Below, piece after piece: positions 42,372 to 58,139 of a stretch of 64,000 nucleotides of DNA. Below the pieces are notes generated by a model. The model did no database searches. It was given only the letters and a program-made list of their open reading frames with translations, and was not told the DNA's origin. Positions within the stretch are counted from its first letter, which is position 1; every line of letters begins with the position of its first letter. The translations under genes were made by a program, and so were the position numbers. The DNA comes from Paracoccus wurundjeri (GTDB taxonomy: Bacteria > Pseudomonadota > Alphaproteobacteria > Rhodobacterales > Rhodobacteraceae), in NCBI RefSeq assembly GCF_030678915.1, contig NZ_JAUUTZ010000002.1, positions 309,445 to 373,444 of the forward strand, given 5' to 3'.

Positions 42372-42446
42372 ACGATCCTTATTAAATTTGTAGGTTAAGC
42401 AAGGTGAGGACGACGTAACCGCCAGTCCGCCCAAGCCAAAACGGGA

Positions 42447-42463
42447 GCGATTGTAACAATCGC
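42447..42463. promoter_or_regulatory. Perfect palindrome upstream of the salicylate ligase gene
   Basis: GCGATTGTAACAATCGC has perfect seven-base arms around TAA and ends 27 bases before the ATG at 42491. It may be an operator or a leader hairpin of the siderophore operon. It does not match a known iron box. Confidence 0.5.
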
Positions 42464-42490
42464 GGATGTTTTGCGCGAAAGGATGGCGAC

Positions 42491-44113
42491 ATGTCCCAGA
42501 CTCCACCGGGGTGGCAGGCTCTCTGCCCATTTTGGCCCGCCGAGATTGCGGAGACCTATCGCAAGGCCGGGCTTTGGCAGGCCCGAACCTTCAGCGACAT
42601 TCTGGACGATCTGGCTGCGACTCATGATGACCGGCTGGCAGTGATCGACGGAACGCGCCGCTTCGGCTATGCGGATTTGCGTGATCGCTCGCTGGCGCTT
42701 GCCTGCGGGTTGTACGGGCTGGGCTTGCGGCGCGGCGATCGGGTTATCGTCCAGCTTCCCAACTGCGCCGAATTCATCGAACTGTGCTTTGCGCTGTTCC
42801 GATTGGGGGTGGTGCCGGTCCTGGCCTTGCCCGCCCATCGTGATCTGGAAATCGGCCAGTTCGCCGCGTTTTCCGAAGCGACGGCCTGCTTCATTCCCGC
42901 CAGCGTCGAGGGGTTCGACATGGTGGCGATGGCGCGCCGGGTTCAGAAGGCCACGCCTTCATTGCGCCATATCGTCGTGCTGGGGTCGGATCTTGATGCG
43001 CTTTACCAGCAGGACGAGCCCCCCGAATGGGAGGCACCCGATGCCGAGGATGTCGCCTGTTTCCAGATTTCGGGCGGCACAACCGGCGTTCCCAAGCTGA
43101 TCCCGCGCAGACATATGGAATATATCTACAACGTGCGCTGCGCCGCGCGTGCCAGCGGATTTTCGCAGGCGACCCGTTATCTGTGCGCGTTGCCGATGTC
43201 GCATAATTTCCCGATGGCCTGTCCCGGATTTATCGGCGCGTTGATGTCGGGCGGCACCGTGGTGATCGCGCCCAATCCATCGCCCGATACCTGTTTCGGG
43301 CTGATCGCAGAACATGGCGTTACCGTCACCGCTCTGGTTCCGCCGCTGGTGCTTCTGTGGCTGGAATCGGTGAAAGCCCCCCTGTCGCTGGAACTGCTGC
43401 AGGTCGGCGGCGCCAAGCTCAATCCCTCGACGGCACGGCGGATCCTGCCGGAACTGGGTTGTCGTCTTCAGCAGGTACTGGGCATGGCCGAGGGGCTGAT
43501 CTGCTATACCGGGCTGGACGACCCGGAGCTGCGGGTTATCCAGACCCAGGGCAGGCCCATGTCCGAATGGGACGAGTTGCGGGTGATCCGCCCCGACGGG
43601 ACCGAGGCCGGGCCGGGTCAGACCGGCGAGTTGCAGGTACGCGGCCCCTATACGATCCGGGGCTATTTCAACCGCCCCGATGTCGATCGCGAATCCTTCA
43701 CGCCGGACGGGTTCTATCGCAGCGGCGATATCGTCAGCCGCAATGAAGACGGCTATCTGACCGTCGAGGGGCGTGACAAGGATCAGATCAATTGCGGCGG
43801 TGAAAAGATCGGCGTCGACGAGGTCGAGGATCTGCTGCTTTATCACCCTTCGGTCGTGGATGCCGCAGTGGTGGCCCGCCCTGACGCCAGGATGGGCGAG
43901 CGCGCCTGCGCCATCGTCATCCCTCGCGACCCGCGCCCTTCCGCGCTGTCGCTGCGCCGTCATCTGCGCGACGCGGGTCTTGCCGGCTTCAAGATCCCCG
44001 ACGAGGTGATCTTTGTCGCCTCTTTCCCGCAGACCGGCGTCGGCAAGGTCAATAAACGGCAATTACGCGAAATGCTGCGGCAAGAGCATTTCGGCGGGGA
44101 GGTGACAGCATGA
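42491..44113 (+). CDS. pchD: Salicylate-AMP ligase (PchD/YbtE-like)
   Basis: The 540-residue protein is an aryl-acid adenylating enzyme of the EntE/PchD family: ISGGTTGVPKLIPRRH (A3), QQVLGMAEGLICYT (A5), GYFNRPDVDRESFTPDGFYRSGDI and DQINCGGEKIGVDEVE (A8), VGKVNKRQL (A10). Pocket residues are HNF-PMACPG (N239, F240, C244) and GLICYT, matching the salicylate pattern N-F-C with I/L-C rather than DHB's N-Y-S with V-N. It should make salicyl-AMP and load an aryl carrier protein. It is followed by the pchB-like gene with a four-base overlap. Confidence 0.88.
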   Translation: MSQTPPGWQALCPFWPAEIAETYRKAGLWQARTFSDILDDLAATHDDRLAVIDGTRRFGYADLRDRSLALACGLYGLGLRRGDRVIVQLPNCAEFIELCFALFRLGVVPVLALPAHRDLEIGQFAAFSEATACFIPASVEGFDMVAMARRVQKATPSLRHIVVLGSDLDALYQQDEPPEWEAPDAEDVACFQISGGTTGVPKLIPRRHMEYIYNVRCAARASGFSQATRYLCALPMSHNFPMACPGFIGALMSGGTVVIAPNPSPDTCFGLIAEHGVTVTALVPPLVLLWLESVKAPLSLELLQVGGAKLNPSTARRILPELGCRLQQVLGMAEGLICYTGLDDPELRVIQTQGRPMSEWDELRVIRPDGTEAGPGQTGELQVRGPYTIRGYFNRPDVDRESFTPDGFYRSGDIVSRNEDGYLTVEGRDKDQINCGGEKIGVDEVEDLLLYHPSVVDAAVVARPDARMGERACAIVIPRDPRPSALSLRRHLRDAGLAGFKIPDEVIFVASFPQTGVGKVNKRQLREMLRQEHFGGEVTA

Positions 44114-44496
44114 GCAGGCTCACGCGTGACGAGCCCGGGCTGCATCCGGTTTTGCCGGACGATGCACGTTCCCTTGACGATATCCGCGAGGGAATCGACG
44201 GCATTGATCGCCGGGTAATCGAACTGCTGGCGCTGCGTCTCGACTATGTCCAGCGCGCAGCCGATTTCAAACCCGATCTCGCCTCGGTCCCCGCGCCCGA
44301 GCGGGTTCGCGCGATGCTGGACGACCGCGCCGAATGGGCGGCTTCCCTTGGCCTGTCCTCGGATTTCATCGCTCCGCTTTTTGCGCAGGTCAGCGAGTGG
44401 TTCATCCGCCAGCAGGTCGCGCATTGGCCCGACCGCAATCCCGTCACCCGCGAAAGCAAGTCCGGCACGACCTCTGCTTCCGGGGTGGATAACTAA
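44110..44496 (+). CDS. pchB: Isochorismate pyruvate lyase (PchB-like)
   Basis: The 128-residue chorismate-mutase-fold protein follows Pseudomonas PchB closely: DIREGIDGIDRRVIELLALRLDYVQ, AADFK with the catalytic-loop Lys, VPAPERVRAMLDDRAEWA, LGLSSDFIAPLF and WFIRQQVAHW. PchB splits isochorismate to salicylate and pyruvate. It is longer at both ends than PchB (101 residues). It links the isochorismate synthase to the salicylate ligase. Confidence 0.88.
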   Translation: MSRLTRDEPGLHPVLPDDARSLDDIREGIDGIDRRVIELLALRLDYVQRAADFKPDLASVPAPERVRAMLDDRAEWAASLGLSSDFIAPLFAQVSEWFIRQQVAHWPDRNPVTRESKSGTTSASGVDN

Positions 44497-44507
44497 AGGA
44501 ATTTTCC

Positions 44508-45674
44508 ATGACTTCGATGCTGCAAGACTTCATGCCCGACAGGGCAGAAACGACTTTGCCCTATTTCACCTTTGGCGGCGCACGCGGATTTGTCGCCGGC
44601 CGCGGCGTGGCGCGCCCGGTCGCGCGTGGGCCGGCGGAAACGCTGGAAGAACGCGTGACCACAGCGCTGTCTTCCGCCGGCGCAGATGCGGCGATCGGCG
44701 GCGCGCTGCCCTTTGATCGCGATGCGGATGACTACCTGTGGCTGACCGACCGTCTCAGCTATGAAATTTCACCCGCCACCGACCGGGCGCCCGCATCCAC
44801 GGTCGGAGTGCAGGCGGAACCTTCGGCAGGGATCTATGCGGAGGCCGTCGCCCGGGCGCTGCGGATCATGGAGGACGAGACAGGAGACGAACGGCTGCGC
44901 AAGATCGTGCTTGCCCGCACATTGGCGGTTCAGGCTGAACGCTCCATCTCGTTGCCGGGGCTGCTGTCGCGACTGACCGAAGACCCGGCGGCCACCGCCT
45001 ATCAGGTTGCCTTGCCCCATAGCCCCGAACGGCAGGGCAGGTTCCTTGTCGGAGCGACGCCCGAATTGTTGGTGGAGAAGTCCGGCTCGCGCGTGTCGTC
45101 CTTCCCCCTTGCCGGATCGGCGCGGCGCAGCCGGGACCCGCAGGCGGATGCCGCGGCGGCAAGCGGCCTTGCCGCATCGGAAAAAGACCGGCGCGAACAT
45201 GCGATGGTGGTGGAATATATCCTCGACACATTGTCGCCTTATTGCCGTGAACTCGGCGCGCCCGAAGGCACCGGCCTGACCTCGACCCGCAGCATGTGGC
45301 ATCTGGGTACGCGCCTTGAAGGGGTGCTGAAAGAAACCGACATCCCTTCGGTGGTACTGGCAGGCTGTCTGCATCCCACCCCCGCCGTCTGCGGACTTCC
45401 GCGTGAACGTGCCGCCGGGCTGATCCGCGATCTTGAGCCGGTGGACCGCGATTTCTACGCCGGAGCGGTCGGCTGGAGTACCGCGAATGGCGACGGCTCA
45501 TGGTATGTCGCGATCCGTTGCGCGGAAATCTGCGGAAGCCAGGCCCGTCTTTACGCGGGGGCGGGGATCGTGCCCGGCTCGGACCCGGCGGCAGAAGCGG
45601 CCGAGACTGCCGCCAAATTCGAAGCATTGCTCAGGGCTTTCGGCCTGCCCTCCGCAACCGGCATCGCCCAGTAA
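44508..45674 (+). CDS. entC: Isochorismate synthase (EntC/DhbC-like)
   Basis: The 388-residue protein is an isochorismate synthase: LRKIVLARTL, QGRFLVGATPELLVEKSG, FPLAGSARRSRD, EKDRREHAMVVEYILDTLSPYC, LAGCLHPTPAVCGLPRERA and DFYAGAVGW. It isomerises chorismate to isochorismate, the branch point for salicylate and DHB here. The length matches EntC (391) rather than fused salicylate synthases, consistent with the separate PchB. Confidence 0.93.
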   Translation: MTSMLQDFMPDRAETTLPYFTFGGARGFVAGRGVARPVARGPAETLEERVTTALSSAGADAAIGGALPFDRDADDYLWLTDRLSYEISPATDRAPASTVGVQAEPSAGIYAEAVARALRIMEDETGDERLRKIVLARTLAVQAERSISLPGLLSRLTEDPAATAYQVALPHSPERQGRFLVGATPELLVEKSGSRVSSFPLAGSARRSRDPQADAAAASGLAASEKDRREHAMVVEYILDTLSPYCRELGAPEGTGLTSTRSMWHLGTRLEGVLKETDIPSVVLAGCLHPTPAVCGLPRERAAGLIRDLEPVDRDFYAGAVGWSTANGDGSWYVAIRCAEICGSQARLYAGAGIVPGSDPAAEAAETAAKFEALLRAFGLPSATGIAQ

Positions 45675-45693
45675 CATCGACCGGAGTATCTTG

Positions 45694-46338
45694 ATGTCTC
45701 TTCCTACCATCGCCGCCTATGATCTGCCCACCCCGCGCGAGTTGCCGGACTCGAAAGCGCCGTGGCAGGCGGAATCCGGGCGGATGGCCCTGCTGGTGCA
45801 TGACATGCAGCAGTATTTCTGTGCCGCCTACAAACAGGACACGGTCCCGCTTTCCGGGGTGATCGCGAATATCGGACGACTGCTGCAATCGGCGCGGCAG
45901 CATGATGTGCCGGTCTTCTACACGGCGCAGAAAGGCAATCAGCTTCTGGCGGATCGCGGCTTGCAGGCCGATCTCTGGGGGCCGGGGATGAAGGCCGTGC
46001 CAGAGCATGAAGATATCCTGCCCGAACTTGCCCCCGCGGCGGGCGATATCGTGCTGGTCAAGCATCGTTACAGCGCGTTCCAACGCTCGAATCTCGAACA
46101 TCTGATGCGCGCCCGAGGGCGGGATCAACTGGCGATTGCCGGGATCTATGCGCATATCGGCTGTTTCGCGACCGCGGTCGAGGCCTTCCAGCGCGACATC
46201 CAGCCATTTGTCATTGCGGATGCCCAGGCCGATTTCGATCGCGCCGGGCATGACATGGCGATGTCGATGGCGGCGGGTTACAGCGGCGTGGTCACAGGAA
46301 CGGATGCGTTGATCGCGGCATTGGAGGCGACAGCATGA
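45694..46338 (+). CDS. entB: Isochorismatase (EntB-like, without carrier domain)
   Basis: The 214-residue protein hydrolyses isochorismate to 2,3-dihydro-2,3-dihydroxybenzoate. It has the catalytic Asp (LLVHDMQQYF), Lys (VLVKHRYSAF) and a Cys-containing nucleophile region (GIYAHIGCFATAVEAF). EntB and VibB are about 285 residues with a C-terminal aryl carrier; here that domain is missing and is encoded separately at 47692-47931. The ATG at 45694 begins the family homology. Confidence 0.94.
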   Translation: MSLPTIAAYDLPTPRELPDSKAPWQAESGRMALLVHDMQQYFCAAYKQDTVPLSGVIANIGRLLQSARQHDVPVFYTAQKGNQLLADRGLQADLWGPGMKAVPEHEDILPELAPAAGDIVLVKHRYSAFQRSNLEHLMRARGRDQLAIAGIYAHIGCFATAVEAFQRDIQPFVIADAQADFDRAGHDMAMSMAAGYSGVVTGTDALIAALEATA

Positions 46339-47114
46339 AACTGGAAGGTTTTTCCAATCGCGCCGCTTTCGTAACCGGCGCGGCGGGCGGCATCGGTCTT
46401 GCCCTGGTCGCGGCCCTGCATGCGGCGGGCGCAAGGGTATTTGCGACCGATATCCCCGAGGCGCTGGACGGGCTGCCGGAACGGGACAGCAGCAACGAGG
46501 CCGTTCACTGGCACGGGCTGGATGTCAGCGATCCCCTTGCCGTCGCGGATTGCGTCGCGCTGGCCGAGGAAACCGTGGGGCCGTTATCGCTTGCCGTGCA
46601 TGCGGCCGGGATATTGTCCACGACATCCGTTCTTGACCTGACCCCGGCCGAATGGGAACGGGTGATGAGCGTCAATGCCGGAGGCTGTTTCAACGTTCTG
46701 CAAGCTTTGGGCCGGGTCATGCTGCCGCGCGGCAAGGGATCAATCGTCGTGGTCGGTTCGAATGCCGCGGGGGTTCCCCGGCAGAACATGGCGGCCTATG
46801 CGGCGTCGAAAGCGGCAATTGCGATGCTGACGCGCTGCGTGGGGCTGGAACTCGCGGGACACGGCATCCGCTGCAATATCCTTGCCCCTGGATCGACGCT
46901 GACGCCGATGCAGACCGGGATGTGGGCCGATGAAAGCGGCGCCGCCAAGGTGATCGCCGGCGACCCGTCCAGCTATCGCACCGGCATTCCGCTGGGCAAG
47001 CTGGCCGCGCCCGAGGATATCGCCGCCGCCGCGATGTTCCTGCTATCCGATCAGGCCGGGCAGATCACCATGACGGATCTTTATGTGGATGGCGGGGCGA
47101 CATTGCGCGCCTGA
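46335..47114 (+). CDS. entA: 2,3-dihydro-2,3-dihydroxybenzoate dehydrogenase (EntA-like)
   Basis: The 259-residue SDR has AFVTGAAGGIGLALVAAL at the start, AGILS, the catalytic YAASKAA and a TLTPMQ segment seen in EntA/DhbA. It oxidises dihydro-DHB to 2,3-dihydroxybenzoate with NAD. It is coupled to the isochorismatase gene by a four-base overlap and is the last plus-strand gene of this set; its 3' end overlaps the convergent PPTase gene by 34 bases. Confidence 0.92.
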   Translation: MKLEGFSNRAAFVTGAAGGIGLALVAALHAAGARVFATDIPEALDGLPERDSSNEAVHWHGLDVSDPLAVADCVALAEETVGPLSLAVHAAGILSTTSVLDLTPAEWERVMSVNAGGCFNVLQALGRVMLPRGKGSIVVVGSNAAGVPRQNMAAYAASKAAIAMLTRCVGLELAGHGIRCNILAPGSTLTPMQTGMWADESGAAKVIAGDPSSYRTGIPLGKLAAPEDIAAAAMFLLSDQAGQITMTDLYVDGGATLRA

Positions 47115-47695
47115 AGCGCGATCCATGTCAGAACCCGCCCGCGCCCGATCCGGTAATGCACCGCAAAGCGATGGCCCGCAGGCCAGTCGGGCGACAAATC
47201 CCGCGTCAGGACAAGCGAGCAGGGGGCGTCGAACCGCGCCGCCTGAAAGCCGAAATAGCCGACATGCGGGTACAGCGCCTTGAACAGGCTTTCCTTGGCC
47301 GAAAAGGCCAGCGTCAGGCTTAGCGGATCCTTTTCCGCGACCGGACCGATCACAGGGATCACGTCGCGCGCGACCGAGGTGTCCATTACCGTTTCGATAT
47401 CGATCCCGGCTGCGTGATAGCGCCGCGCACAGGCGACCAGCGCGACCGCGTTCCGGCGATTGTGGCTGATCGAGCCGATGGTACCCTTGGGCCACAGGGG
47501 CAGGCGATCCGGCCCCATACCGATCAGGGCGGCCTGCCCGGTCAGTCGCCGCAACGCCGCCCGCGCCGCCATCCGGCCCGCGGCATATTCGGCCCGCCGC
47601 CGGGGCCGGGCCGCGGCGATTTCCGCGGGCAGGAGGGGTGGTTCCTCCTCATCGCCCACCTGCCGCAGCGCAAAGGCAAGGCCGCCGTCGTTCAC
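47081..47695 (-). CDS. Phosphopantetheinyl transferase (EntD/Sfp type)
   Basis: The product is 204 residues from the GTG at 47695, which overlaps the carrier-protein stop (GTGA); an ATG at 47728 would add 11 residues inside the carrier gene. Motifs are GSISHNRRNAVALVA, GIDIETV with the magnesium-binding residues, and LAFSAKESLFKALYP. It attaches the phosphopantetheine arm to the Ser of the carrier proteins. It lies downstream of the DHB ligase and ArCP genes in one operon. Confidence 0.9.
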   Translation of the reverse strand: MNDGGLAFALRQVGDEEEPPLLPAEIAAARPRRRAEYAAGRMAARAALRRLTGQAALIGMGPDRLPLWPKGTIGSISHNRRNAVALVACARRYHAAGIDIETVMDTSVARDVIPVIGPVAEKDPLSLTLAFSAKESLFKALYPHVGYFGFQAARFDAPCSLVLTRDLSPDWPAGHRFAVHYRIGRGRVLTWIALQARNVAPPST

Positions 47696-47931
47696 CCGGC
47701 GCGGCGTTCGCGGATCAGGTCCGACCATGCGGTCAGGGTGGGATTGCGGGCCAGTTCTTCGAAGCTGATCTGAATGCCCCGCTCTTTCAACTCTCCGGCC
47801 AAAGTCATGATGCGGATGGAATCAAGGCCGTAGAAGATCAGGCTTTCCTCGGGGTCGATACAGTCCTCATCCTCGATCAGTTCGGTGACGCGGGCTTGCA
47901 GCCAATCGGCATCGGTAAGCGTCTCAGTCAT
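47692..47931 (-). CDS. Free-standing aryl carrier protein (ArCP)
   Basis: The roughly 79-residue product is a small acidic carrier protein with FYGLDSIRIM, where Ser38 is the phosphopantetheine site. It resembles the ArCP domain at the end of EntB/VibB, here as its own gene. It should carry the aryl acid to the Cy and C domains. It is the only discrete aryl carrier in the cluster although two ligases with different acids are present. Confidence 0.88.
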   Translation of the reverse strand: MTETLTDADWLQARVTELIEDEDCIDPEESLIFYGLDSIRIMTLAGELKERGIQISFEELARNPTLTAWSDLIRERRAG

Positions 47932-47968
47932 TCCGGAAAATCCTTCCATTCCGATTGTGATTTTGAAA

Positions 47969-49585
47969 TCATGCGCATGCGGCATCTTCCTGCAGAAGCA
48001 TGTCGCGCAGTCTGACCTTGTCGGTCTTGCCCACCGGAGTCAGCGGCATCTGGTCGATGAAGCGAACCCGGTCGGGCAGTTTGTATTCGGCGATCCCCAG
48101 CGTCATCAGATGCCGCCGCAATTCAACCGCCCTCAGCTTCTCGCGCGGGACGATGAAGGCGCAGCTGCGTTCGCCCAGACGTGCATCGCCCATCGCCACA
48201 AGCGCGGCGGCGTGAACGGCGGGATGACGTTGCAACAGATGCTCGATCTCTTCGGCGGCGATCTTCTCTCCGCCGCGATTGATCTGATCCTTGACCCGGC
48301 CGACGACGCGCAGATAGCCCTCGGGCGTGCGCTCGACGATATCGCCGGTGAAATAGAACCCGTCGGCATCGAAGCTGCGGGCGTTATGTTCGGGGCTGCG
48401 ATAATAGCCGCGGAACGTATAAGGCCCCCGCGTTGCCAGCAATCCGGCCTCGCCATCCGGCAGGTCCTGACCGTCCGGGCCAACCACGCGAACCTCGTCA
48501 TCGGGGCTGATCGGGCGGCCCTGCGTGGTAAGGATACGCTCGGCGGGATCGTCAAGGCGGGTATAGTTCACCAGACCCTCGGCCATGCCGAAGACCTGCT
48601 GCAATGCGCAGCCCAGCTTTTCGGGTACCCGGCGGGCGGTGGCCTCGGCAAAGCTTGCCCCGCCCACCTGCACCAGTCGCAGTGAAGTCAGGGCGGAATT
48701 GTCGCGCTCGGCCGCCTCAAGCCATAACAGTACCGCCGAAGGCACCAGCGCTGCCATCGTCACGCGATGACGCTTGACCAGATCGAAGCACAGCGCCGGA
48801 TCCGGGTTTGCCGCCAGAACAACGGTCCCGCCCGCATGGAACACGCCAAGCGCGCCGGGTGAACTCATCAGGTAATTATGCGGCGCGGGCATGGCGCAGA
48901 GATAGCGGGTCTCGGGCGTCAGCCCGCAGATCACGGCGCTTTCGCGGATGCTGTAATCGTAATCGTCATGGGTGCGCGGAATCAGTTTTGGCGTGCCGGT
49001 GCTGCCGCCTGATAGCTGAAAGAAGGCCACGCCATCCGCAGGGGTTGGCATTTCCGTGAAATCCTGTGGCACCGGCCCCGAAAGCCAATGTTGCAGCGAT
49101 CTTTTGGTGTCGTCCTCGCCATGAAACAGCGCCAGCATATCCGGCGCGTTCTGCCGCAATTCCCCGGCAAACCTGTCATCTCCGAACAATTCATGGCTGC
49201 GCGAGGCAATCAGCAGGCGTGGCCGGATCTGTTCGGCATAGGCGGTAAGCTCTGCCCGGCGATGGGTGAACAGCGCGTTCAGCGGCACGATTCCCGCCTT
49301 CATGAGCGCTAGGAACACCATGTAGAATTCCGCGACATTCGGCATTTGCACCAGGGCGGTATCGTCACGCCGCAATCCGGCCGCCTGCAACCGCGCGGCC
49401 AGTGCCGAGGAGGCGCGGTCCAGTTCGCGATAGCTGATCTTGCGCCCGTCGCAGATCACCGCAATTGCGTCGGGCCGTTGCCGCGCCTGACGGTCGACTG
49501 CATGATGCAGGGGCTTGCCGATCCAGTAACCAAGCTTGCGATAACGATCGGCAAATGCCTCCGGCCATGGAGTAAACTCAACCAT
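47969..49585 (-). CDS. entE: 2,3-dihydroxybenzoate-AMP ligase (EntE/DhbE/VibE-like)
   Basis: The 538-residue enzyme adenylates DHB and loads the adjacent ArCP. It has LSGGSTGTPKLIPRTH (A3), FGMAEGLVNYTRLDDP (A5), TRGPYTFRGYYRSPEHNARSFDADGFYFTGDI and DQINRGGEKIAAEEIE (A8), and VGKTDKVRL (A10). Its pocket reads HNY-LMSSPG (N237, Y238, S242) and GLVNYT, the DHB pattern of EntE. It starts a minus-strand operon entE-ArCP-PPTase. Confidence 0.93.
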   Translation of the reverse strand: MVEFTPWPEAFADRYRKLGYWIGKPLHHAVDRQARQRPDAIAVICDGRKISYRELDRASSALAARLQAAGLRRDDTALVQMPNVAEFYMVFLALMKAGIVPLNALFTHRRAELTAYAEQIRPRLLIASRSHELFGDDRFAGELRQNAPDMLALFHGEDDTKRSLQHWLSGPVPQDFTEMPTPADGVAFFQLSGGSTGTPKLIPRTHDDYDYSIRESAVICGLTPETRYLCAMPAPHNYLMSSPGALGVFHAGGTVVLAANPDPALCFDLVKRHRVTMAALVPSAVLLWLEAAERDNSALTSLRLVQVGGASFAEATARRVPEKLGCALQQVFGMAEGLVNYTRLDDPAERILTTQGRPISPDDEVRVVGPDGQDLPDGEAGLLATRGPYTFRGYYRSPEHNARSFDADGFYFTGDIVERTPEGYLRVVGRVKDQINRGGEKIAAEEIEHLLQRHPAVHAAALVAMGDARLGERSCAFIVPREKLRAVELRRHLMTLGIAEYKLPDRVRFIDQMPLTPVGKTDKVRLRDMLLQEDAACA

Positions 49586-49673
49586 ATCTCACCCGACGTG
49601 ATTTTGTTCTGAGGTCTGGCTAAGGGCCGAAATCTGCCCGTGGCTTCGGTGCGTGTTGACCGCAGGATATAAC

Positions 49674-49688
49674 TGAGTATTTTTATCA
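49674..49688 (+). promoter_or_regulatory. TGA-N9-TCA motif near the NRPS start
   Basis: TGA (49674-49676) and TCA (49686-49688) are spaced by nine bases in an AT-rich stretch, the iron-responsive operator pattern of RirA. The motif is short and could be chance; it is placed where iron control of the NRPS would be expected. Confidence 0.25.
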
Positions 49689-52600
49689 TGATTTGTCAAC
49701 CATCCCGACAGGACATCATGCAGGACTTGACCGCGATGCAAGCCGCCTATTGGGTCTGGGGCCATTCCCCCCGCGCGACCGAGGGCGTTTCCGCGCATCT
49801 TTATGCTGAATTCGACACTGGATTACTGGATGAAGACCGGCTGCGCGATGCTCTTCGGCAGGTTTTCGCCTGCCACCCGGCTCTGGCGCTTGGTGTAGAT
49901 GCCGAGGGCGCGCCGCTTGATGTGCCGCCACCTCCGCTGGAAGTCGAGGATCTGCGCGATCAGCCCTCTGCCGGGCAAGAGCGCAGGCTTGCGGAAATCC
50001 GGCATGAGAAATCCCATCAGCGGCTTGCTTTGGATCGGGGCGCGGGAATGCAGATCTCGCTTAGCCTTCTGGGACAGGATCGGGCGCGGCTGCATCTTGA
50101 TCTGGACATGATCACCGCGGACCCATCCTGTTTCGGGCAGATTGTCGAAGATCTCGCGCGTGCTTATGAAGGCGAGGAACTGACATATCTTGCCGCGCCG
50201 TCGCCGCGCCGGATTTGCCCCCAAGATCGCGACTGGTGGCGCGACCGGCTGGAATCTTTGCCCGCGACGCCGGTTTTACCGGACGGCACTGGCGGCGCAC
50301 CGGCCAGCACGCGCCTGTTTGCGATGCTGACCCCGGATGAGGTGCAGGCGCTGCGGCATGTCGCCCGGCAAAGCCGCGTTACATTTTCGGCAATGATGAT
50401 GACGCTGTTTGCAGCGCATTTGGGGCAGGCCACCGGGCAGCGGCAATTCCGCCTGAATCTGCCAACCTTTCTACGTGAAAAGGGCGATCCGGCGGCGGTG
50501 GGCGATGTGTCCGACCTGATCGTGCTGGGAATCGAGCTGGCCGACCTTCCCTTTCGGGTCTTGTGCCAACGTCAGCAAGAGATCCTGTTCGCGGCATTGT
50601 CACATCATGGCTATTCCGGCACGGCGGTATTGCGCGACCTGTCGCGGCTGCGTGGAACGGTCGAAACCGCGCCGGTGGTGTTTTCCGCCGGGCTGGATCT
50701 GCCGGGACGGGTGATCCTTGGGCCGGCGGCCTCGCGGTTGTTCGGACCGATGGTCTGGGTGATGTCGCAGGCGCCACAAGTTGCGCTGGATGTGCAGTTC
50801 GGCATGCTGACCGAGGGCCTTCTGATCAACTGGGACCTGCGGACGGATCGGGTGGACGAGCCATGGGCACGCGATCTCTTCGACCGTTTCACCGCCGACG
50901 CCCGCCATCTGGCGACCAGTCCAGAGGCGGCGGAGCTGCCGCTTGCTGTCTGGCGTGATGCCCCGCGGCAGCCTCTGACGGTTCTGCAACAGGCCTATCT
51001 GATGGGACGGGGTGCACATTTGCCGCTGGGCGGCGTGGCGATGCAGAAATTCCGCGAATACCGGGGCGAATTCCAGATCGACAGGCTTCGGGCGCGGCTG
51101 ACCGATATGATGTCGCGTTACCCCGCCCTGCGCAGCCGGATCGACCCGGCCAGCCTGATGTTGTCCGAATTGCCATCGGCAGAGACGGCATCAGGCGGGG
51201 CCGGGACCGGATTGCCGTTTGACGTGACGGATCTGCGCCATCTGCCGCCCGCCGAAGCCGGGGCGCGGGTGGACGGGCTGCGCGATGATTATGCCCATGC
51301 AATGTTCGATCTTGACGGTCCGCTTTGGCATGTCCGGGCATTCCTGATGCCCGAAGAATGCGATCCGGTGGTGATTTTCACCCGTTTCGATGCGTTGATC
51401 CTTGACGGGCAGTCGATCTGTTCCCTGCTGGCGCGGATGTTTGACGAGGCCCCGCTTGCGGCGCAGGCTCCGGTTCCCCGGCCGCGCCCGGATACGACCG
51501 CACGCCGCAAGGCCGCCGCTTACTGGAAAGATTATCTGGCCGGCGTCGAAACCCCGCCGCGCCTGCCCTGGCTTGTTCCGCTGGAAAAGATCGGCAACTC
51601 CCGCTATCGCCGCCAGACCCTGCGTTTGCCTTGTGATCTGCTTGGGCAGTTGCGGCGTATCGGTGCGGCAGAGGGCCTGTTCCTGAACTCGGTACTGACC
51701 GCGATCCTGCTGGATGTGGTGGCCCGCTGGACGGCTGACGGTCAGCTATGCGTCGCGGTTCCGGTGACACCGCCCGATGCCGCAACGGGAAAGGCCGGAA
51801 CGCAGAATGCCTCGACCTTCATCCCGCTGCGTTTCGATGCAACCAAAGGTACATTGTCCGAACGGGCTGCGGGTTGTCAGTCGGACATGATGGCCGGGCT
51901 GGAACAGACCGCCTTCAGCGGTCCCGAGATCGGGCGGCTGTTGATGAATAACGGCGGCGGCGCATTGCCGCTGCCGGTTGTGCTGACCAATGGCATGGGC
52001 TGGGAACGCCCCGCGCCTGCCCCGATGCGGCTGATCCGTGGCCTGACCCAGACTCCGCAGGTCGCGCTGGATTTGCGGCTTGCGCTGGATGCCGAAGGTG
52101 GGCTGGAGCTGAATATCGATCATGCCGAACGGGCGGTGGGCGCGCGGCTTGCACAGGATATGCTGGATGCCATGGGCCGGGCGATCCTGGTCATCTGCGA
52201 CAGGGGCACACTGAAGCTTGAGTCCCATGAGGTTCTGGCACTGGATCATTATCGCCATAATGCCGCGCCGGACATGCTGGCCGAACCGGAAGCGGATTTC
52301 CTGACGGCCATCGCCCGCAACCTCTTTGAGACGGGCGGCGCCCGCCCGGCACTGCATTTCGGCGAGGAATGCCTAAGCTATGCCGGGCTTGGCCGCATGG
52401 TCGCATCGGCGATTAGCGGATTGCGGGCGCGGGGATTGGCCGAGGGCGATGTGGTGGCGATCTGCCTGCCGCGCGGGCCCGAACATCTGGCGCTGCAACT
52501 CGCCTGTGCGCTGGAGGGGCTGATCTGGGTGCCTATCGACGCCTCGGCCCCGCAGGAACGGCGTTGTTATCTGCTGGAGAATTGCAGTCCCGCCCTGATC

Positions 52601-54031
52601 GTCGCGGCGACACGAACAGATGGCTTCCCCTCGGTCCCGGCAGAGACGATATTCGCCGCATCGCCGGATGCCCGCCCCGCCGAATCCGGGACGCTTCGCC
52701 GCCGCAGCCTGTCAGAGCAGCCGGGCTATTACCTTTACACCTCGGGCACGACCGGGCGCCCCAAATGCGTGGTGCTGAACAATCGCGCCACCGCCAACAC
52801 CATCGCCGCAACCAGGCAAAACTGGCGGCTCGGCACCGAGGATGTGACGATCTCGGTCACGCCGCTGCATCACGACATGTCGGTTTTCGATCTGTTCGGC
52901 AGCCTGTCCGCCGGCGCGACACTGGTCATGCCGGATCATGAGAAAGACGCGATCCATTGGTGCCGTCTGGTCCGCAGGCATGGGGTAACGATCTGGTGCT
53001 CGGTCCCGGCGATTCTTGAAATGCTGCTGGCCTGCCGCCAGTCCGGCGATCTGGATAGCCTGCGGCTGGTCGCGCAGGGTGGTGATTATATCAAGCCCGC
53101 GACAATCGCGACCCTGCGCGAATTACTGCCCCAAGCGCGGCTGATCTCGCTTGGCGGGCCGACCGAAACCACGATCTGGAGCATCTGGCATGAAATCGCC
53201 GCAGGCGATACCGGCACCGTCCCCTATGGCCGCCCCCTGCCGGGCAACAGCTATTTCATCTGCACGGATTCAGGCGAACATTGCCCGGCCGGCATTGTCG
53301 GGCGCATCCATACCGCCGGGGTGAATATTGCGCTGGGATATCTGTCCGGCGGGCAGATCGGGGGCGATGATTTCGTGACGCTGAACGACGATCGGGGGCG
53401 GCCGGTCCGGGCGTTCCGCACGGGTGACCGGGGATATTACCGCGATGACGGCAGCATCATCTTTGCCGAGCGCGTGGGCGGCTATATCAAGATCCGTGGC
53501 GTGCGCCTGTCGCTTGCCGATGTCGAGATCGGCCTGATCGGTCACCCCGACATCCGCCATGTCATCGCGGTGGATTGCGGCGAGGGGGCCGATGTCACGC
53601 TGGCGGCGCTTTATGTCGCCGACAGAATGATCTCGGCCGCCGATCTGCGTGCCCACGCCCGCGAGCATCTTCCGGAATCGCATATCCCCTCGCGCTTCCT
53701 GCGGGTCGACGCGCTTCCCCTGTCGGCGAATGGCAAACCCGACCGCAACCGGGCGCGGCAGATGCTGACCGAACCCGCGCAACCCGATATCCCGGCCCCG
53801 CAATCGGGCGACACGGCGCAGAATGTGCTGGCTATCTGTCTTCGCGTCATCGGCCCTGCGCCGGACGCCACCCCCGATCAGCCGCTGCTGTCGCTGGGCT
53901 TGCGGCCCGCCCATCTCAAACCCATCGCCGACGGTCTGTCTGCCGCTTATGGAAAGCCGCTCCGTCCGGCCCAGCTCAGCCGCTGCCGCACGGCCCGCGA
54001 CATGTCGCAGCTATGCCTTGAAACCGCCTGA
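49688..54031 (+). CDS. NRPS Cy-Cy-A-(degenerate carrier), N-half of a VibF-like synthetase
   Basis: The 1447-residue product has two tandem heterocyclization domains, an adenylation domain and a carrier remnant. Cy1 spans about 15-425 with DMITADPS (140-147), PVVFSAGL and SQAPQVALD. Cy2 spans about 427-840 with the canonical DALILDGQS (568-576), PVVLTNGM and TQTPQVALD. The A domain (870-1355) has YLYTSGTTGRPK and LSANGKPDR; my hand-aligned pocket code is D-M-F-C-A-G-L-I-W-K. The final 75 residues resemble a carrier fold but have LGLRPAHL where GGDSL should be, so there is no Ser to prime. A start at 49718 has the better ribosome-binding site. VibF has the same Cy-Cy-A order. Confidence 0.9.
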   Translation: MICQPSRQDIMQDLTAMQAAYWVWGHSPRATEGVSAHLYAEFDTGLLDEDRLRDALRQVFACHPALALGVDAEGAPLDVPPPPLEVEDLRDQPSAGQERRLAEIRHEKSHQRLALDRGAGMQISLSLLGQDRARLHLDLDMITADPSCFGQIVEDLARAYEGEELTYLAAPSPRRICPQDRDWWRDRLESLPATPVLPDGTGGAPASTRLFAMLTPDEVQALRHVARQSRVTFSAMMMTLFAAHLGQATGQRQFRLNLPTFLREKGDPAAVGDVSDLIVLGIELADLPFRVLCQRQQEILFAALSHHGYSGTAVLRDLSRLRGTVETAPVVFSAGLDLPGRVILGPAASRLFGPMVWVMSQAPQVALDVQFGMLTEGLLINWDLRTDRVDEPWARDLFDRFTADARHLATSPEAAELPLAVWRDAPRQPLTVLQQAYLMGRGAHLPLGGVAMQKFREYRGEFQIDRLRARLTDMMSRYPALRSRIDPASLMLSELPSAETASGGAGTGLPFDVTDLRHLPPAEAGARVDGLRDDYAHAMFDLDGPLWHVRAFLMPEECDPVVIFTRFDALILDGQSICSLLARMFDEAPLAAQAPVPRPRPDTTARRKAAAYWKDYLAGVETPPRLPWLVPLEKIGNSRYRRQTLRLPCDLLGQLRRIGAAEGLFLNSVLTAILLDVVARWTADGQLCVAVPVTPPDAATGKAGTQNASTFIPLRFDATKGTLSERAAGCQSDMMAGLEQTAFSGPEIGRLLMNNGGGALPLPVVLTNGMGWERPAPAPMRLIRGLTQTPQVALDLRLALDAEGGLELNIDHAERAVGARLAQDMLDAMGRAILVICDRGTLKLESHEVLALDHYRHNAAPDMLAEPEADFLTAIARNLFETGGARPALHFGEECLSYAGLGRMVASAISGLRARGLAEGDVVAICLPRGPEHLALQLACALEGLIWVPIDASAPQERRCYLLENCSPALIVAATRTDGFPSVPAETIFAASPDARPAESGTLRRRSLSEQPGYYLYTSGTTGRPKCVVLNNRATANTIAATRQNWRLGTEDVTISVTPLHHDMSVFDLFGSLSAGATLVMPDHEKDAIHWCRLVRRHGVTIWCSVPAILEMLLACRQSGDLDSLRLVAQGGDYIKPATIATLRELLPQARLISLGGPTETTIWSIWHEIAAGDTGTVPYGRPLPGNSYFICTDSGEHCPAGIVGRIHTAGVNIALGYLSGGQIGGDDFVTLNDDRGRPVRAFRTGDRGYYRDDGSIIFAERVGGYIKIRGVRLSLADVEIGLIGHPDIRHVIAVDCGEGADVTLAALYVADRMISAADLRAHAREHLPESHIPSRFLRVDALPLSANGKPDRNRARQMLTEPAQPDIPAPQSGDTAQNVLAICLRVIGPAPDATPDQPLLSLGLRPAHLKPIADGLSAAYGKPLRPAQLSRCRTARDMSQLCLETA

Positions 54032-54088
54032 CCGGCAAAACCCATCCGCCAGCCCGCATGCCAGCGTTCCAAGCTTGAAGGATACCCG

Positions 54089-55435
54089 ATGACCGATCTG
54101 CATGGTGACCAGCATGACGGCTGGATGCCGCTGACCCTCGCGCAACTCGATTTCTGGGAGGAGTTCTGTTTTCACTCCGACAAGCCGATTTCGACCGTTG
54201 CCCATTACGTGACCATCGACGGCCTTGCCGATCCGGCGGCGCTGGCCGAGGCGATTTCCCGCACCATTGCCGAGGCGGATGCCCTGTCCCTGCGCTTTAA
54301 GGAACTGCCGGACGGTCGTGTCCGCCAGCGGCACGACTCTGCCTATGCGCCCCGGCTGGCGCAGTTCGATCTGCGGGATGAACCCGATCCGGATGGCACG
54401 GCCATGGCAAGAATGCGCGGGGATTTCGAAGCGGTTCTGGATCTGCGCCGCGATCCCCTGTCCGTGCAATGGCTGTTCCGCACCGGAGAGGCCCGATGGA
54501 TCTGGTATAATCGTGGGCATCACGCGGTGCTGGACGGCTATAGCATGCTGCTTTTGGAACAACGCTGCGCACGGCTCTATCGCCATCTGACCGGTAAGGG
54601 GCCGGCGGGCGATCCTTTCCTGCCTTTCGCCCGCTTCATCGAGGAAGATCAGGCTTATGCGCAGGGATCCCGTTTCCCGAAAGACCGGGACTATTGGGCC
54701 GGCTATCTCAGCGGCGAGCTGTCATTCCCGGTCCTGAAAAAGGGCGGCGAGGATTATGGTATCGACGGTCTGACGGCGTTTTGCGCCTTGCCCGAGGATT
54801 TTCCGCAACGGATGAAAAGCTGTGCCGAGCGGCTGAAAACCGGCTGGCCCGATCTTCTGGTGCTGTTGGCGGGGGCCTATCTTGCGCGGCGATTACCTTA
54901 TTCCGGCGCCGCCCTGCCATTATGGCTGCCCTATATGAGCAGGCTTGGCAGTGCCGCGGCGATGATCCCCTCGCTTGCGGTGAATATCCTGCCGCTGCTG
55001 GTCGATGTCCCGGATAATGAAACGCTGGAAGATCATGTCGCGCGGCTCTCCGGCGATCTGCGCAGCCTTCGGAAACACGGGCGTTACCGGGTCGAGCAGC
55101 TTGCCGCCGATCGCGGCATCGGCGAGGGCAGCCGGTTCTTCTTTTCACCACTGGTCAATCTGCTGCCGTTCGATCCGCCGGAATTCGATGGCTGCATCTG
55201 CGAACGTCACGTTCTGTCGAACGGTCCGGCGGACGGGTTCAACATCACCTTCCGCTCGGGCGGCGATGGCGGCGGCATGTCGCTTTACCTCGAAGCCGAT
55301 CCGACCATGACCTCCGCCACCGAGTTCGACCGGCATTGCCGGGACCTGCCCGCCTTCCTGTCGCGTGCGCTTGATCCCGCCAATGCCGCGCGCGCTATCG
55401 TGGCGCTGCTGGACGAAGAACCCGCGCCGGCGTGA
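54089..55435 (+). CDS. Free-standing condensation enzyme (VibH-like)
   Basis: The 448-residue product is a single NRPS condensation domain with no A or carrier domain. It has the active-site HHAVLDG (144-150) and a normal C-domain length. VibH, the free condensation enzyme of vibriobactin synthesis, joins carrier-bound DHB to a polyamine primary amine. Here the analogous reaction would be DHB-ArCP plus spermidine. It lies 57 bases after the Cy-Cy-A gene on the same strand. Confidence 0.88.
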   Translation: MTDLHGDQHDGWMPLTLAQLDFWEEFCFHSDKPISTVAHYVTIDGLADPAALAEAISRTIAEADALSLRFKELPDGRVRQRHDSAYAPRLAQFDLRDEPDPDGTAMARMRGDFEAVLDLRRDPLSVQWLFRTGEARWIWYNRGHHAVLDGYSMLLLEQRCARLYRHLTGKGPAGDPFLPFARFIEEDQAYAQGSRFPKDRDYWAGYLSGELSFPVLKKGGEDYGIDGLTAFCALPEDFPQRMKSCAERLKTGWPDLLVLLAGAYLARRLPYSGAALPLWLPYMSRLGSAAAMIPSLAVNILPLLVDVPDNETLEDHVARLSGDLRSLRKHGRYRVEQLAADRGIGEGSRFFFSPLVNLLPFDPPEFDGCICERHVLSNGPADGFNITFRSGGDGGGMSLYLEADPTMTSATEFDRHCRDLPAFLSRALDPANAARAIVALLDEEPAPA

Positions 55436-55448
55436 AAGCGCGGCAGGG

Positions 55449-55484
55449 GCCAGCGCGGGACGCAAAATCAATCCCGCCATCCTA
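55449..55484 (-). repeat. Possible remnant of the GC-rich 3'-end repeat
   Basis: On the minus strand TAG of the NRPS stop is followed by a short divergent stretch and then TTGCGTCCCGCG, the most conserved block of the repeat family. The large hairpin is absent. Confidence 0.4.
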
Positions 55485-58139
55485 TCGCAACGCGCGCGCC
55501 GCCAATTCGCTTAACGGCAGTGCCGCCTGCGCCGGATCGGCCAGAAGCCGGAAGGTTTCGCCGACGGTCGCGGTGATGCGTTTCACATCCGTTTCGCCAT
55601 AACGATCCGAACGGTAACTCATCATCACGCGCAGGCTTCGTTCCTGACCGATGACATCCTCGACAACCTCGAATTGCAGGCCAAGGATCGACTCGGCCTT
55701 TTCCGGATCGATCTGACGGAAGCGGATGCGCTTGCCATCGGGCAGGTCAAAGCTGCCATTCATGGGATTGCGGGCATGGATCTGGATGAATGCCTCGAAG
55801 ATGCGATCCATTGGCTGCGGCTGCCCGGTCAGCCTTTCACTGACCAGATCCAACGGAATATCGGCCTGCGGCATCGAGCCGTTGATCATGTCGCGGACCT
55901 GACCCACCAGTGCCCGGGCCGTCACGCCCTTGGCAAAGCGGGTGCGGTGGGCGACCATGGTGGTAAAATAACCGATCGTGTCGAAGAATTCCGCCTCCAG
56001 CCGGCCCGAGGCGGATGTTCCGATCAGCAGGTCGTCTATCCCGCCCAACCAGTGCAGCGCCGCCGCGATTCCGGCATAGACCACGTTGAAGGGCGATGCG
56101 TTCTCGGCCTTGGCGAGCGCGTAAAGCCCTTCGGCAATCTCCGGCTCGACGCGCAATTCGACCCATCCGCCCGCCGGAGAGCTGTCGCCCTCGGCGCTAC
56201 CGAACAGCGGCGCGGCTTCGGGGGCGCCGCGCAGCATTTCGGCCCAGAAACCCAGATGCGCCTCATTCGGGCCTGCTGCGTCCTGACGTGCCGCGAATTC
56301 ATGGAACGGCGCGGGCGTTTCGGGCCAGACCGGGGCGTTTCCGGCTGCACGGCTGGCATAGGCCCGGGCGAGATCCCCGATCAGCAGGCCCACGGACCAC
56401 TCGTCCAGCACGACATGGTGGAACAGCATCGACAGGATCTGTTCGCCATTCTCGGCAAGAAACCGCAGGCGCAGCGGCAATTCGCGGGCAAGATCGAAGA
56501 CATGGGCGGCCTCGGTTGAACGGGTTGCGCCATCTGCCTCGGATGAGGACCAGAACCAGCGATAGCTGTCCAGATCGGCCATCGGCACGACGGTCTGGCG
56601 CGGCTTGCCCCCCTTGTCCGAGAACAGGCTGCGCAGGACGGGGTGACGTTCCAGAACATCGCGAAATGCCTGTGCGAATACCGTTTCGTCCACCGGATCA
56701 AGGAAGCGCAGGCCGAAAGGGATATTGAAGATATCGCCATAGCCAAAGCCCGCATAAGCGCGCCACAGCGACGCCTGAGCCAGCGATAAGGGCGCAGAGA
56801 CGGGCGCATCGGATGCCGGTTCCGGTTGCGCCGGAACCTCCCCGCATGGTTCCGGCCCGGTTCTTGTCGCCCGCCCGGCCAGAGACGCCGCGCTTGAGTG
56901 GCTGAACAGATCGCAAAGATGGATCTCGATCCCGTGCTTGTCCAGCAGCCGGCCGATAACGCGGGTTGCGGTCAGGGAATGACCGCCGAAATCGAAGAAA
57001 TCATCTTCCGGTCCCAGATTATCGTCATGCAATGCCGCGCGAAATTCGCTTAGGATGACCTGTTGCAGATCAGGGCTGGCATTGGCGGCAGGAACGGTGG
57101 CTTCGGCGGTCGTGACAGGGATCGATGGTACAACCGAAGGAATATCGGCCGCCCCCGATTTCAGCCGCGCGGCGCAGCGTTCCAGCACCAATCCCGCGGC
57201 CATAGGTGAGATATCGTGCCCGGCCAGCATTTCCAGCCCGGTATTCCCGCGCAGCCCGACCAGCAATCCCGTGCCGGTGAATGCCGTGTCCAGCGGCTGG
57301 CGCGTGACCGTCACTCTGTCAAGTGAAAGCGCGGGATGGGTCAGTTGCGCCACCGCAAGCGATGATTCCAGCGGCAATGCCAGGGCAAGATCGGGCAGGG
57401 GGTGCGCGACGGTTTCGATATCGGGGGCAGGCGTGCCGGTAACTTCGGTGAAGGCGGCGGCAAGCTGATTGGCAAGCTCGGCCGTCGAGGTCGTTGTTTC
57501 CAGGACAAGACGGATCGGTTGCGGCAGCGCTACCCTGATGTCCGAGCGCAGCCCTGCCAGCGCATCGGCGCCGGGAGGGTGTTTCCCTTGCGGCAGCGCA
57601 GGCCCCGGCTTGACCGCATATGGAAGCGGGCTGCCGTTATAAAGGGCCGTCAGGGCGTGCAGGCCTGCATTTGCCACCTCTGCCCCGCCAGCAAGCGCGT
57701 GAAAGGCCAGCCCCAGCATCGCCCCGTCGGGCAGCAGGACCAATGCGCATCGGAACGGCGTTTCGGATTCCGGATCCCAGGGGGCGGTTTGCAACTCCTG
57801 CAGCGCCAGGACCGCTTCGGATTCAGAGATGGCGTGATGCAGACGGGCCGATACATGGGCGGGGCGGGCGCAAAGCTCTCCGTCATCGGTCATGACCAGA
57901 GAGTGCGCCAATTGCGGTATCGCGGCGGGAAGTTCCTCCAAGGCGCGGATCAACCGCGTCGCGTCCAGCTTTCCTGTCAGGCGGAAACCCAGCAACGCGG
58001 CCAGAACCGTGCCGGGCTCCTGCTGCTGCTGCAACCAGATATGTTCATGCCGCTCGGTGATTGAAACCGCGCTTTGCGGCAAAGCAGAATCCCGTGCCGA
58101 ACCCGGCGCGATTGCAATATCGGAGAAATTATTTGGCAT
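55482..58139 (-). CDS. NRPS (degenerate C)-PCP-C, C-half of a VibF-like synthetase
   Basis: The 885-residue product has three parts. Residues 28-325 are a shortened condensation-like domain whose HHxxxDG is replaced by FHALAGG (146-152), so it is probably non-catalytic. Residues 355-425 are a peptidyl carrier with FDFGGHSL and Ser388. Residues 448-870 are a condensation domain with HHVVLDEW (574-581). This C-PCP-C order, with an inactive first C, equals the C-terminal half of VibF. It should receive the amino acid activated by the Cy-Cy-A protein and pass the oxazoline to the polyamine. It is on the strand opposite its partner. Confidence 0.9.
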   Translation of the reverse strand: MPNNFSDIAIAPGSARDSALPQSAVSITERHEHIWLQQQQEPGTVLAALLGFRLTGKLDATRLIRALEELPAAIPQLAHSLVMTDDGELCARPAHVSARLHHAISESEAVLALQELQTAPWDPESETPFRCALVLLPDGAMLGLAFHALAGGAEVANAGLHALTALYNGSPLPYAVKPGPALPQGKHPPGADALAGLRSDIRVALPQPIRLVLETTTSTAELANQLAAAFTEVTGTPAPDIETVAHPLPDLALALPLESSLAVAQLTHPALSLDRVTVTRQPLDTAFTGTGLLVGLRGNTGLEMLAGHDISPMAAGLVLERCAARLKSGAADIPSVVPSIPVTTAEATVPAANASPDLQQVILSEFRAALHDDNLGPEDDFFDFGGHSLTATRVIGRLLDKHGIEIHLCDLFSHSSAASLAGRATRTGPEPCGEVPAQPEPASDAPVSAPLSLAQASLWRAYAGFGYGDIFNIPFGLRFLDPVDETVFAQAFRDVLERHPVLRSLFSDKGGKPRQTVVPMADLDSYRWFWSSSEADGATRSTEAAHVFDLARELPLRLRFLAENGEQILSMLFHHVVLDEWSVGLLIGDLARAYASRAAGNAPVWPETPAPFHEFAARQDAAGPNEAHLGFWAEMLRGAPEAAPLFGSAEGDSSPAGGWVELRVEPEIAEGLYALAKAENASPFNVVYAGIAAALHWLGGIDDLLIGTSASGRLEAEFFDTIGYFTTMVAHRTRFAKGVTARALVGQVRDMINGSMPQADIPLDLVSERLTGQPQPMDRIFEAFIQIHARNPMNGSFDLPDGKRIRFRQIDPEKAESILGLQFEVVEDVIGQERSLRVMMSYRSDRYGETDVKRITATVGETFRLLADPAQAALPLSELAARALR

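Follow-up and report, generated by a model that had tools for sequence, protein, structure and literature searches.

The 64,000-nucleotide stretch of Paracoccus wurundjeri DNA under study (hereafter the window, from a genome of 5.08 Mb in 74 contigs) carries 11 contiguous siderophore genes, all of them open frames, at positions 42491-58139, and this locus probably encodes the pathway to parabactin or a very close analogue, assembled from spermidine, two 2,3-dihydroxybenzoates (DHB), one salicylate and one threonine. Parabactin is an iron-scavenging spermidine siderophore described in the 1970s. Our parabactin-type assignment follows from orthology to the genes of a known producer, P. denitrificans, in strain PD1222 of which parabactin was found by mass spectrometry in 2026 (PMC13251462). 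Gene content, motifs, homologies and co-occurrence form the sequence basis from which we infer substrates, arm numbers and product. An earlier, sequence-only reading had arrived at the same assignment, and the orthology with P. denitrificans lends it support, for a product that is itself predicted.

Gene content of the locus

Every enzyme named in that reading is encoded by an open frame at its expected position within 42491..58139, with matching Pfam or NCBIfam families (the Pfam search covered all proteins of the locus except the ligase at 47969, the NCBIfam search all except the VibH-like protein). Predicted products and one non-coding feature are as follows.

42437..42473, strandless: near-palindrome preceding the ligase gene; may be an operator or an RNA hairpin
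42491..44113, +: PchD-like salicylate-AMP ligase of 540 aa; Cys takes the place of DhbE Ser240 in the pocket HNFPMACPG
44110..44496, +: isochorismate pyruvate lyase, PchB-like, 128 aa; start overlapping with the stop of the ligase
44508..45674, +: isochorismate synthase, 388 aa; TIGR00543, 255 bits against a cut-off of 224.75
45694..46338, +: isochorismatase of the EntB N-domain type, 214 aa; PF00857, 144 bits
46335..47114, +: EntA; TIGR04316, 306.6 against a cut-off of 300
47081..47728, -: 4'-phosphopantetheinyl transferase (PPTase), EntD-like; PF17837 and PF01648 above cut-off
47692..47931, -: free aryl carrier protein, 79 aa; GLDSIR site, PF00550
47969..49585, -: DHB ligase; NF008192, 867 against a cut-off of 783
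49688..54031, +: Cy-Cy-A synthetase (VibF front half), 1447 aa; PF00501/PF00668, serine-less carrier-like tail
54089..55435, +: VibH-like amide synthase (stand-alone C domain); motif HHAVLDG
55482..58139, -: X-PCP-C protein (VibF back half), 885 aa; Pfam and motifs

The first five genes, from the PchD-like ligase to EntA, form a tight run on the plus strand. After EntA, the PPTase, the free carrier and the DHB ligase lie on the minus strand; past the DHB ligase, the Cy-Cy-A protein and the VibH-like enzyme are encoded on the plus strand and the X-PCP-C protein on the minus strand. Genes for the synthesis and activation of salicylate (lyase and ligase) stand beside those for the synthesis and activation of DHB, the isochorismatase among the latter being identified by generic family and homology only, and the proposal that salicylate and DHB arms are specified together in one cluster is borne out to the extent that both gene sets are present. 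The carrier is also free as claimed, in that the 79-aa gene stands alone (47692-47931) and the isochorismatase has no fused carrier.

Comparison with P. denitrificans

A contig scan for relatives returned 69 loci, near-identical records possibly having been omitted; among named relatives P. onubensis stands nearest, followed by P. methylarcula. The 1447-aa Cy-Cy-A protein is 96% identical to that of P. onubensis 1011MAR3C25, 80% to that of P. methylarcula and 48% to that of P. denitrificans DSM 413, the last value resembling that of many VibF-type loci in other genera. That the window might itself be P. denitrificans was ruled out by the VibF front half (48%, versus 96% in P. onubensis).

Far from using an unrelated locus, P. 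denitrificans holds the same kinds of enzyme, orthologues of the salicylate pair included, in two places (DSM 413 contigs C93 and C94, fetched as L110, L111 and L049; HAMBI_2443, L009). On DSM 413 contig C94, orthologues of the PchD-like ligase (65-66%) and PchB-like lyase (60-67%) are adjacent and flanked on one side by a receptor gene; a fused Cy-Cy-A-PCP-C synthetase (1905 aa in the HAMBI_2443 copy) and an aryl carrier follow further along. That the genes in between form an iron ABC set is read off the annotation of the syntenic locus in Paracoccus sp. MA, and a DSM 413 reading frame begins like the binding protein of that strain. Contig C93 carries isochorismate synthase, isochorismatase (EntB), EntA, aryl carrier, DhbE and VibH genes in the order of the window, in a stretch without PPTase and without synthetase. 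The window therefore unites what P. denitrificans keeps apart. The likeness extends to the Cy-Cy-A and PCP-C portions of the synthetase and to the siderophore receptor, whereas P. denitrificans differs in having two loci and two aryl carriers, a salicylate pair accompanied by receptor and transport genes, and a fused synthetase with a carrier serine (GGHSL), no serine-less tail and no X region. Searches for the aryl carrier gave one match each in the window genome, P. onubensis and P. methylarcula, and two in P. denitrificans; as the C94 carrier was detected at 49%, a second carrier of such kind in the window genome would have shown, although a more divergent one could escape. The X-PCP-C gene of P. 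methylarcula lies on another contig, not beside VibH, and its presumed absence from that species was rejected accordingly.

The two ligases and the supply of aryl acids

The ligase at 42491 finds its best Protein Data Bank (PDB) match in PchD (7tyb, 619 bits versus 583 for DhbE) and falls under the NCBIfam DHB-ligase cut-off (644 versus 723.55). The ligase at 47969 best matches 3o82, which we take to be BasE, and EntE (711 and 666 bits, versus 501 for PchD). At the DhbE Ser240 position the former has Cys and the latter Ser, and the possibility that both are DHB ligases was ruled out by NCBIfam cut-offs, PDB matches and this pocket residue. The pocket alignment comprised 54 rows, with four of the 16 Paracoccus genomes having 49-52% matches taken and matches below 330 bits dropped. 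Cys occupied this position in all ten PchB-linked ligase rows, counting the window and same-species duplicates, and Ser in all 24 proteobacterial rows scoring better with DhbE, the window included. Ser was also present in four Paracoccus rows (~50% identity) despite a somewhat higher score with the salicylate ligase, and actinobacterial rows were mixed. In BasE, the equivalent Ser-to-Cys change shifts preference toward salicylate (PMC12005286). PchB-linked ligases further formed one clade of eight rows (SH-aLRT 100) in a tree of 52 of the 54 rows, L049 and L111 being omitted as the same species as L009.

The putative lyase matches PchB (2h9d) with 92.5 bits, aligned over residues 16-108, and the isochorismatase is 67% identical to the copy in the DHB locus of P. 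denitrificans. The isochorismate synthase is the sole clear one in the genome (two other matches are partial, at 31% and 33%), which means that a single pool of isochorismate would supply both acids. The PPTase scores 78 bits with the EntD model, under its cut-off of 169.

Co-occurrence of the salicylate genes with the synthetase

Across 125 Paracoccus genomes, of which the best 11 (ligase) and best four (Cy-Cy-A) first-look candidates per genome were scored, the lyase was found in seven (E 1e-12) and the ligase at 65% identity or more in the same seven, 16 further genomes having only 49-52% matches. Ten genomes gave a Cy-Cy-A match (E 1e-100), including all seven with ligase and lyase; partial matches account for two of the ten (G023, with the pair on another contig, and G121), and the pair is lacking in G056, G102 and G121. 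The hypergeometric probability of this co-occurrence, 1.5e-9, ignores relatedness, and the seven genomes represent two lineages. A VibF-type front half (at least 700 bits) was present in 47 of 75 fetched loci, and both salicylate genes accompanied it in five, all Paracoccus and two of the same species; in the other 42 the pair was not found within the fetched stretch, copies elsewhere being possible. DHB genes shared the stretch in 22 of the 47, two of which (P. onubensis and P. methylarcula) also had the salicylate pair.

Two side observations concern synthetases outside this pattern. G056, whose genome has no match to the salicylate pair, carries a P. denitrificans-type synthetase (contig C4; L173:13133-17560) that is apparently a decaying copy, with only ~210 aa after the carrier region. 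Three enteric loci, L014 (a conjugative E. coli plasmid that also bears annotated transport genes), L046 and L080, have VibF-type, VibH-like and PCP-C genes; clear DHB genes were not seen in their fetched stretches, and DHB would come from elsewhere.

Synthetase and amide synthase

The sequence-only reading described a synthetase split into Cy-Cy-A and C-PCP-C proteins. The split stands, but the first 'C' of the latter has neither a Pfam match nor an HHxxxD motif, and X-PCP-C is the better description. Both Cy domains of the front half retain DxxxxD in a 71-row comparison, and the adenylation signature stretches are largely common to the window protein and related VibF rows. The C-terminal tail (~53825-54007) aligns with the carrier domain of P. 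denitrificans without its serine (LGLRPAH) and has no Pfam carrier match. Such a tail also occurs in Rhodovulum, Rhizobium and Serratia rows. Proteobacterial rows that are not of the P. denitrificans type keep it, apart from two (L069 and L070); these are enteric, have a longer, different synthetase and retain the carrier serine, as do most actinobacterial rows. The tail may be a docking site for the X-PCP-C partner.

In that partner, X spans residues ~1-340, a PCP with GGHS residues 362-422 and a C domain with HHVVLDE residues 449-863. The X region has no Pfam match at E 0.001; an AlphaFold2 model (13 rows, mean pLDDT 74.5) predicts a condensation-type fold, for which Foldseek returned the teicoplanin X-domain first, along with starter C domains (TM ~0.6 to the best matches). 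VibF of V. cholerae has an inactive C domain at the equivalent position. The free C enzyme has the amide synthase VibH (1l5a, 215 bits) as its closest structure, keeps HHxxxDG, and is predicted to join aryl acid to polyamine.

Polyamine supply and uptake

The window genome encodes a carboxyspermidine dehydrogenase/decarboxylase-type (CASDH/CASDC-type) pair, the decarboxylase scoring 408.6 against a cut-off of 409.05 and the dehydrogenase 401 against 800. In the account of P. denitrificans given in PMC11999265, such a pair is present and an AdoMet-dependent route is not; expressed in E. coli, the pair made spermine, and its dehydrogenase made carboxyspermidine (PMC11999265).

Orthologues of the receptor beside the salicylate ligase of P. 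denitrificans occur in the window genome at 62%, in P. onubensis at 63% and in P. methylarcula at 53%. The copy in the window genome, with TonB-receptor domains, lies elsewhere in the genome and adjoins a binding protein and FecCD permeases; that this genome lacks such an uptake system was rejected, receptor and FecCD set being on another contig. In P. methylarcula the receptor adjoins an orthologous ABC set and the X-PCP-C gene, here separated from VibH. Related receptors also adjoin DHB-only clusters (57% in Rhodovulum), and the receptor alone is therefore no marker of parabactin. A gene for an NtaA/DmoA-family FMN monooxygenase was observed in the window genome (L170:10564-11850, contig C2 of G000), P. 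methylarcula (L171:3998-5287) and Paracoccus sp. MA (L011:20670-21911), in each case beside the receptor, the ABC set or the synthetase; a role in siderophore handling is possible.

Proposed pathway and alternative products

In the parabactin-type pathway that we propose, one isochorismate synthase would feed a branch point, from which the PchB-like lyase would lead to salicylate, and the isochorismatase and EntA to DHB. The PPTase would prime the single free aryl carrier, onto which the DhbE-type ligase would load DHB and the PchD-like ligase salicylate. The VibH-like enzyme would then attach DHB to the two terminal amines of spermidine, while Cy-Cy-A would activate threonine, load it onto the PCP of the X-PCP-C protein, condense it with salicylate and close the oxazoline; the last C domain would move the salicyl-oxazoline arm to the central amine. 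We tentatively suggest, at somewhat less than even odds, that an agrobactin-type cluster with a single aryl carrier acquired a salicylate cassette in the P. onubensis lineage, such that DHB and salicylate share a carrier and are sorted by the split Cy-Cy-A and by an amide synthase whose active site is altered (HH[A/S]xxDG), as opposed to the two carriers and two loci of P. denitrificans.

Several observations weigh against the parabactin-type pathway, and temper our confidence in it. For all the orthology to the genes of the producer species, the synthetase is only 48-49% identical. A single window and P. denitrificans clade is doubtful for Cy-Cy-A (approximately unbiased (AU) test, p 0.021, on 22 of 71 rows, near-full-length and proteobacterial), for a six-row group that includes the salicylate-less G056 copy and was defined after viewing the 52-row tree; for PCP-C such a clade was not rejected (AU p 0.352, 24 chosen rows). 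In that Cy-Cy-A tree (52 of the 71 rows, leaving out 13 actinobacterial, two enteric (L069, L070) and four duplicate rows) the starred branches force at least two label changes, to which the G056 copy contributes. The assignment of acids is softened by the 122 bits of the lyase with the NCBIfam isochorismate lyase model, four under the cut-off of 126; by the isochorismatase, which has no specific NCBIfam match and for which no EntB equivalog was named; and by the second pocket position of the salicylate ligase, which is Ile in the window and Val, as in DHB ligases, in six of seven P. denitrificans-type rows. Wild-type BasE also accepts salicylate, ~3-fold worse than DHB (PMC12005286), and in vitro each of the two V. 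vulnificus ligases accepted either acid, and prediction from the pocket failed (PMC3900857). Threonine as the substrate of Cy-Cy-A is suggested by homology rather than by a read code, and spermidine is the predicted backbone, from a search that covered the carboxyspermidine route among those to polyamines. The amide synthase motif, HHAVLDG, is without the Ile of HHIxxDG, which is kept in 40 of 42 listed relatives, P. denitrificans included, and reported in a 2021 paper for all polyamine amide synthases examined (PMC7962358); Ala takes this position in the window and P. onubensis, and Ser in P. methylarcula.

Arm numbers are not fixed by gene content alone, and a polyamine bearing two salicyl-threonyl-oxazoline arms and one DHB has a precedent in vulnibactin, with one DHB and two salicylates from a cluster containing lyase, EntA and two ligases (PMC3900857). 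We regard this stoichiometry as improbable here, given that the species of the orthologues, P. denitrificans, makes the product with two DHB and one salicylate (PMC13251462), and that the candidate polyamine route resembles the one in P. denitrificans. Just as improbable, in our estimation, is a reading in which the salicylate pair works for a different product, or for free salicylate, while the remainder of the locus makes an agrobactin-type siderophore: of the 22 fetched stretches where VibF-type and DHB genes occur together, 20 do without salicylate genes, but no alternative partner for the PchD-like ligase is evident in the locus, ligase and lyase are confined within Paracoccus to genomes that also give a Cy-Cy-A match (7/7), and the pair shares an operon or locus with Cy-Cy-A in both P. 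denitrificans and the P. onubensis lineage. Compatible with the parabactin-type pathway, if rather unlikely, is a mixture in which an all-DHB, agrobactin-type molecule is made alongside parabactin. The one aryl carrier found in the genome, versus two in P. denitrificans, and the lax acid selectivity of related ligases would favor such a mixture, whereas the acid may be chosen at the Cy and amide-synthase domains.

Relation to other siderophore systems and to earlier work

The chemistry proposed is of a kind already known from vibriobactin, agrobactin and vulnibactin, of which the one-carrier layout is a variant. The assembly logic is that of VibE, VibB, VibH and VibF of Vibrio cholerae, with the free C enzyme matching VibH; vibriobactin contains only DHB as aryl acid, on norspermidine, with two oxazolines and a single VibF chain. 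Among solved proteins, those of the pyochelin genes pchD and pchB come closest to the products of the salicylate pair in the window, and pyochelin has neither DHB nor a polyamine. Agrobactin, with DHB as sole aryl acid, does not describe the window, where salicylate genes are present. The agrobactin-type (DHB-only) locus on a Rhodovulum sulfidophilum plasmid (L012) shares the gene order from isochorismate synthase to VibH, the split synthetase with serine-less tail and the free aryl carrier, and differs in that its fetched stretch contains neither of the salicylate genes (ligase and lyase). Salicylate and DHB synthesis with two ligases in one cluster is not unique to the window, since the vulnibactin cluster of Vibrio vulnificus (VV2_0828-0844) has both (PMC3900857); compared here by description rather than by sequence, vulnibactin differs in its two salicylates and one DHB (PMC3900857) and in its polyamine, reported as norspermidine (PMC7962358).

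A search of openly licensed literature found no description of the parabactin genes. The 2021 paper gives the parabactin cluster and amide synthase as yet to be identified (PMC7962358); a passage of a 2022 paper mentions chorismate-to-DHB enzymes and a nonribosomal peptide synthetase (NRPS) for parabactin, and no salicylate gene (PMC9399729); and the P. denitrificans section of the 2026 paper names only dhb genes and an entF (PMC13251462). PMC8273931 cites Wang et al. 2014 on P. denitrificans and NRPS, a hint of earlier assignment, and antiSMASH output from 2024 places parabactin among documented clusters (PMC11537045). An earlier assignment or reference entry may therefore exist, and we do not claim priority. 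As far as these papers go, the gene assignment, the consolidated layout and the single aryl carrier, versus two in P. denitrificans, are new.

Flanking and upstream sequence

From translations judged by eye, we take the genes on one flank of the locus to be for copper and molybdate transport and those on the other for a sulfonate-type ABC system, and the cluster boundary accordingly stays where the sequence-only reading had set it. The 37-nt near-palindrome at 42437-42473, detected by a repeat search, has 18-nt arms that are 78% complementary and is kept in P. onubensis; at the same upstream spot P. methylarcula has a different sequence, by eye also partly palindromic. Scans for sigma-70 promoters and terminators gave counts at chance level.

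Conclusions

With the genes listed in both the window and P. denitrificans, the proposed parabactin-type pathway is open to testing by single deletions. More broadly, the single-carrier arrangement poses the question of how an assembly line delivers two near-identical acids to the right amines.

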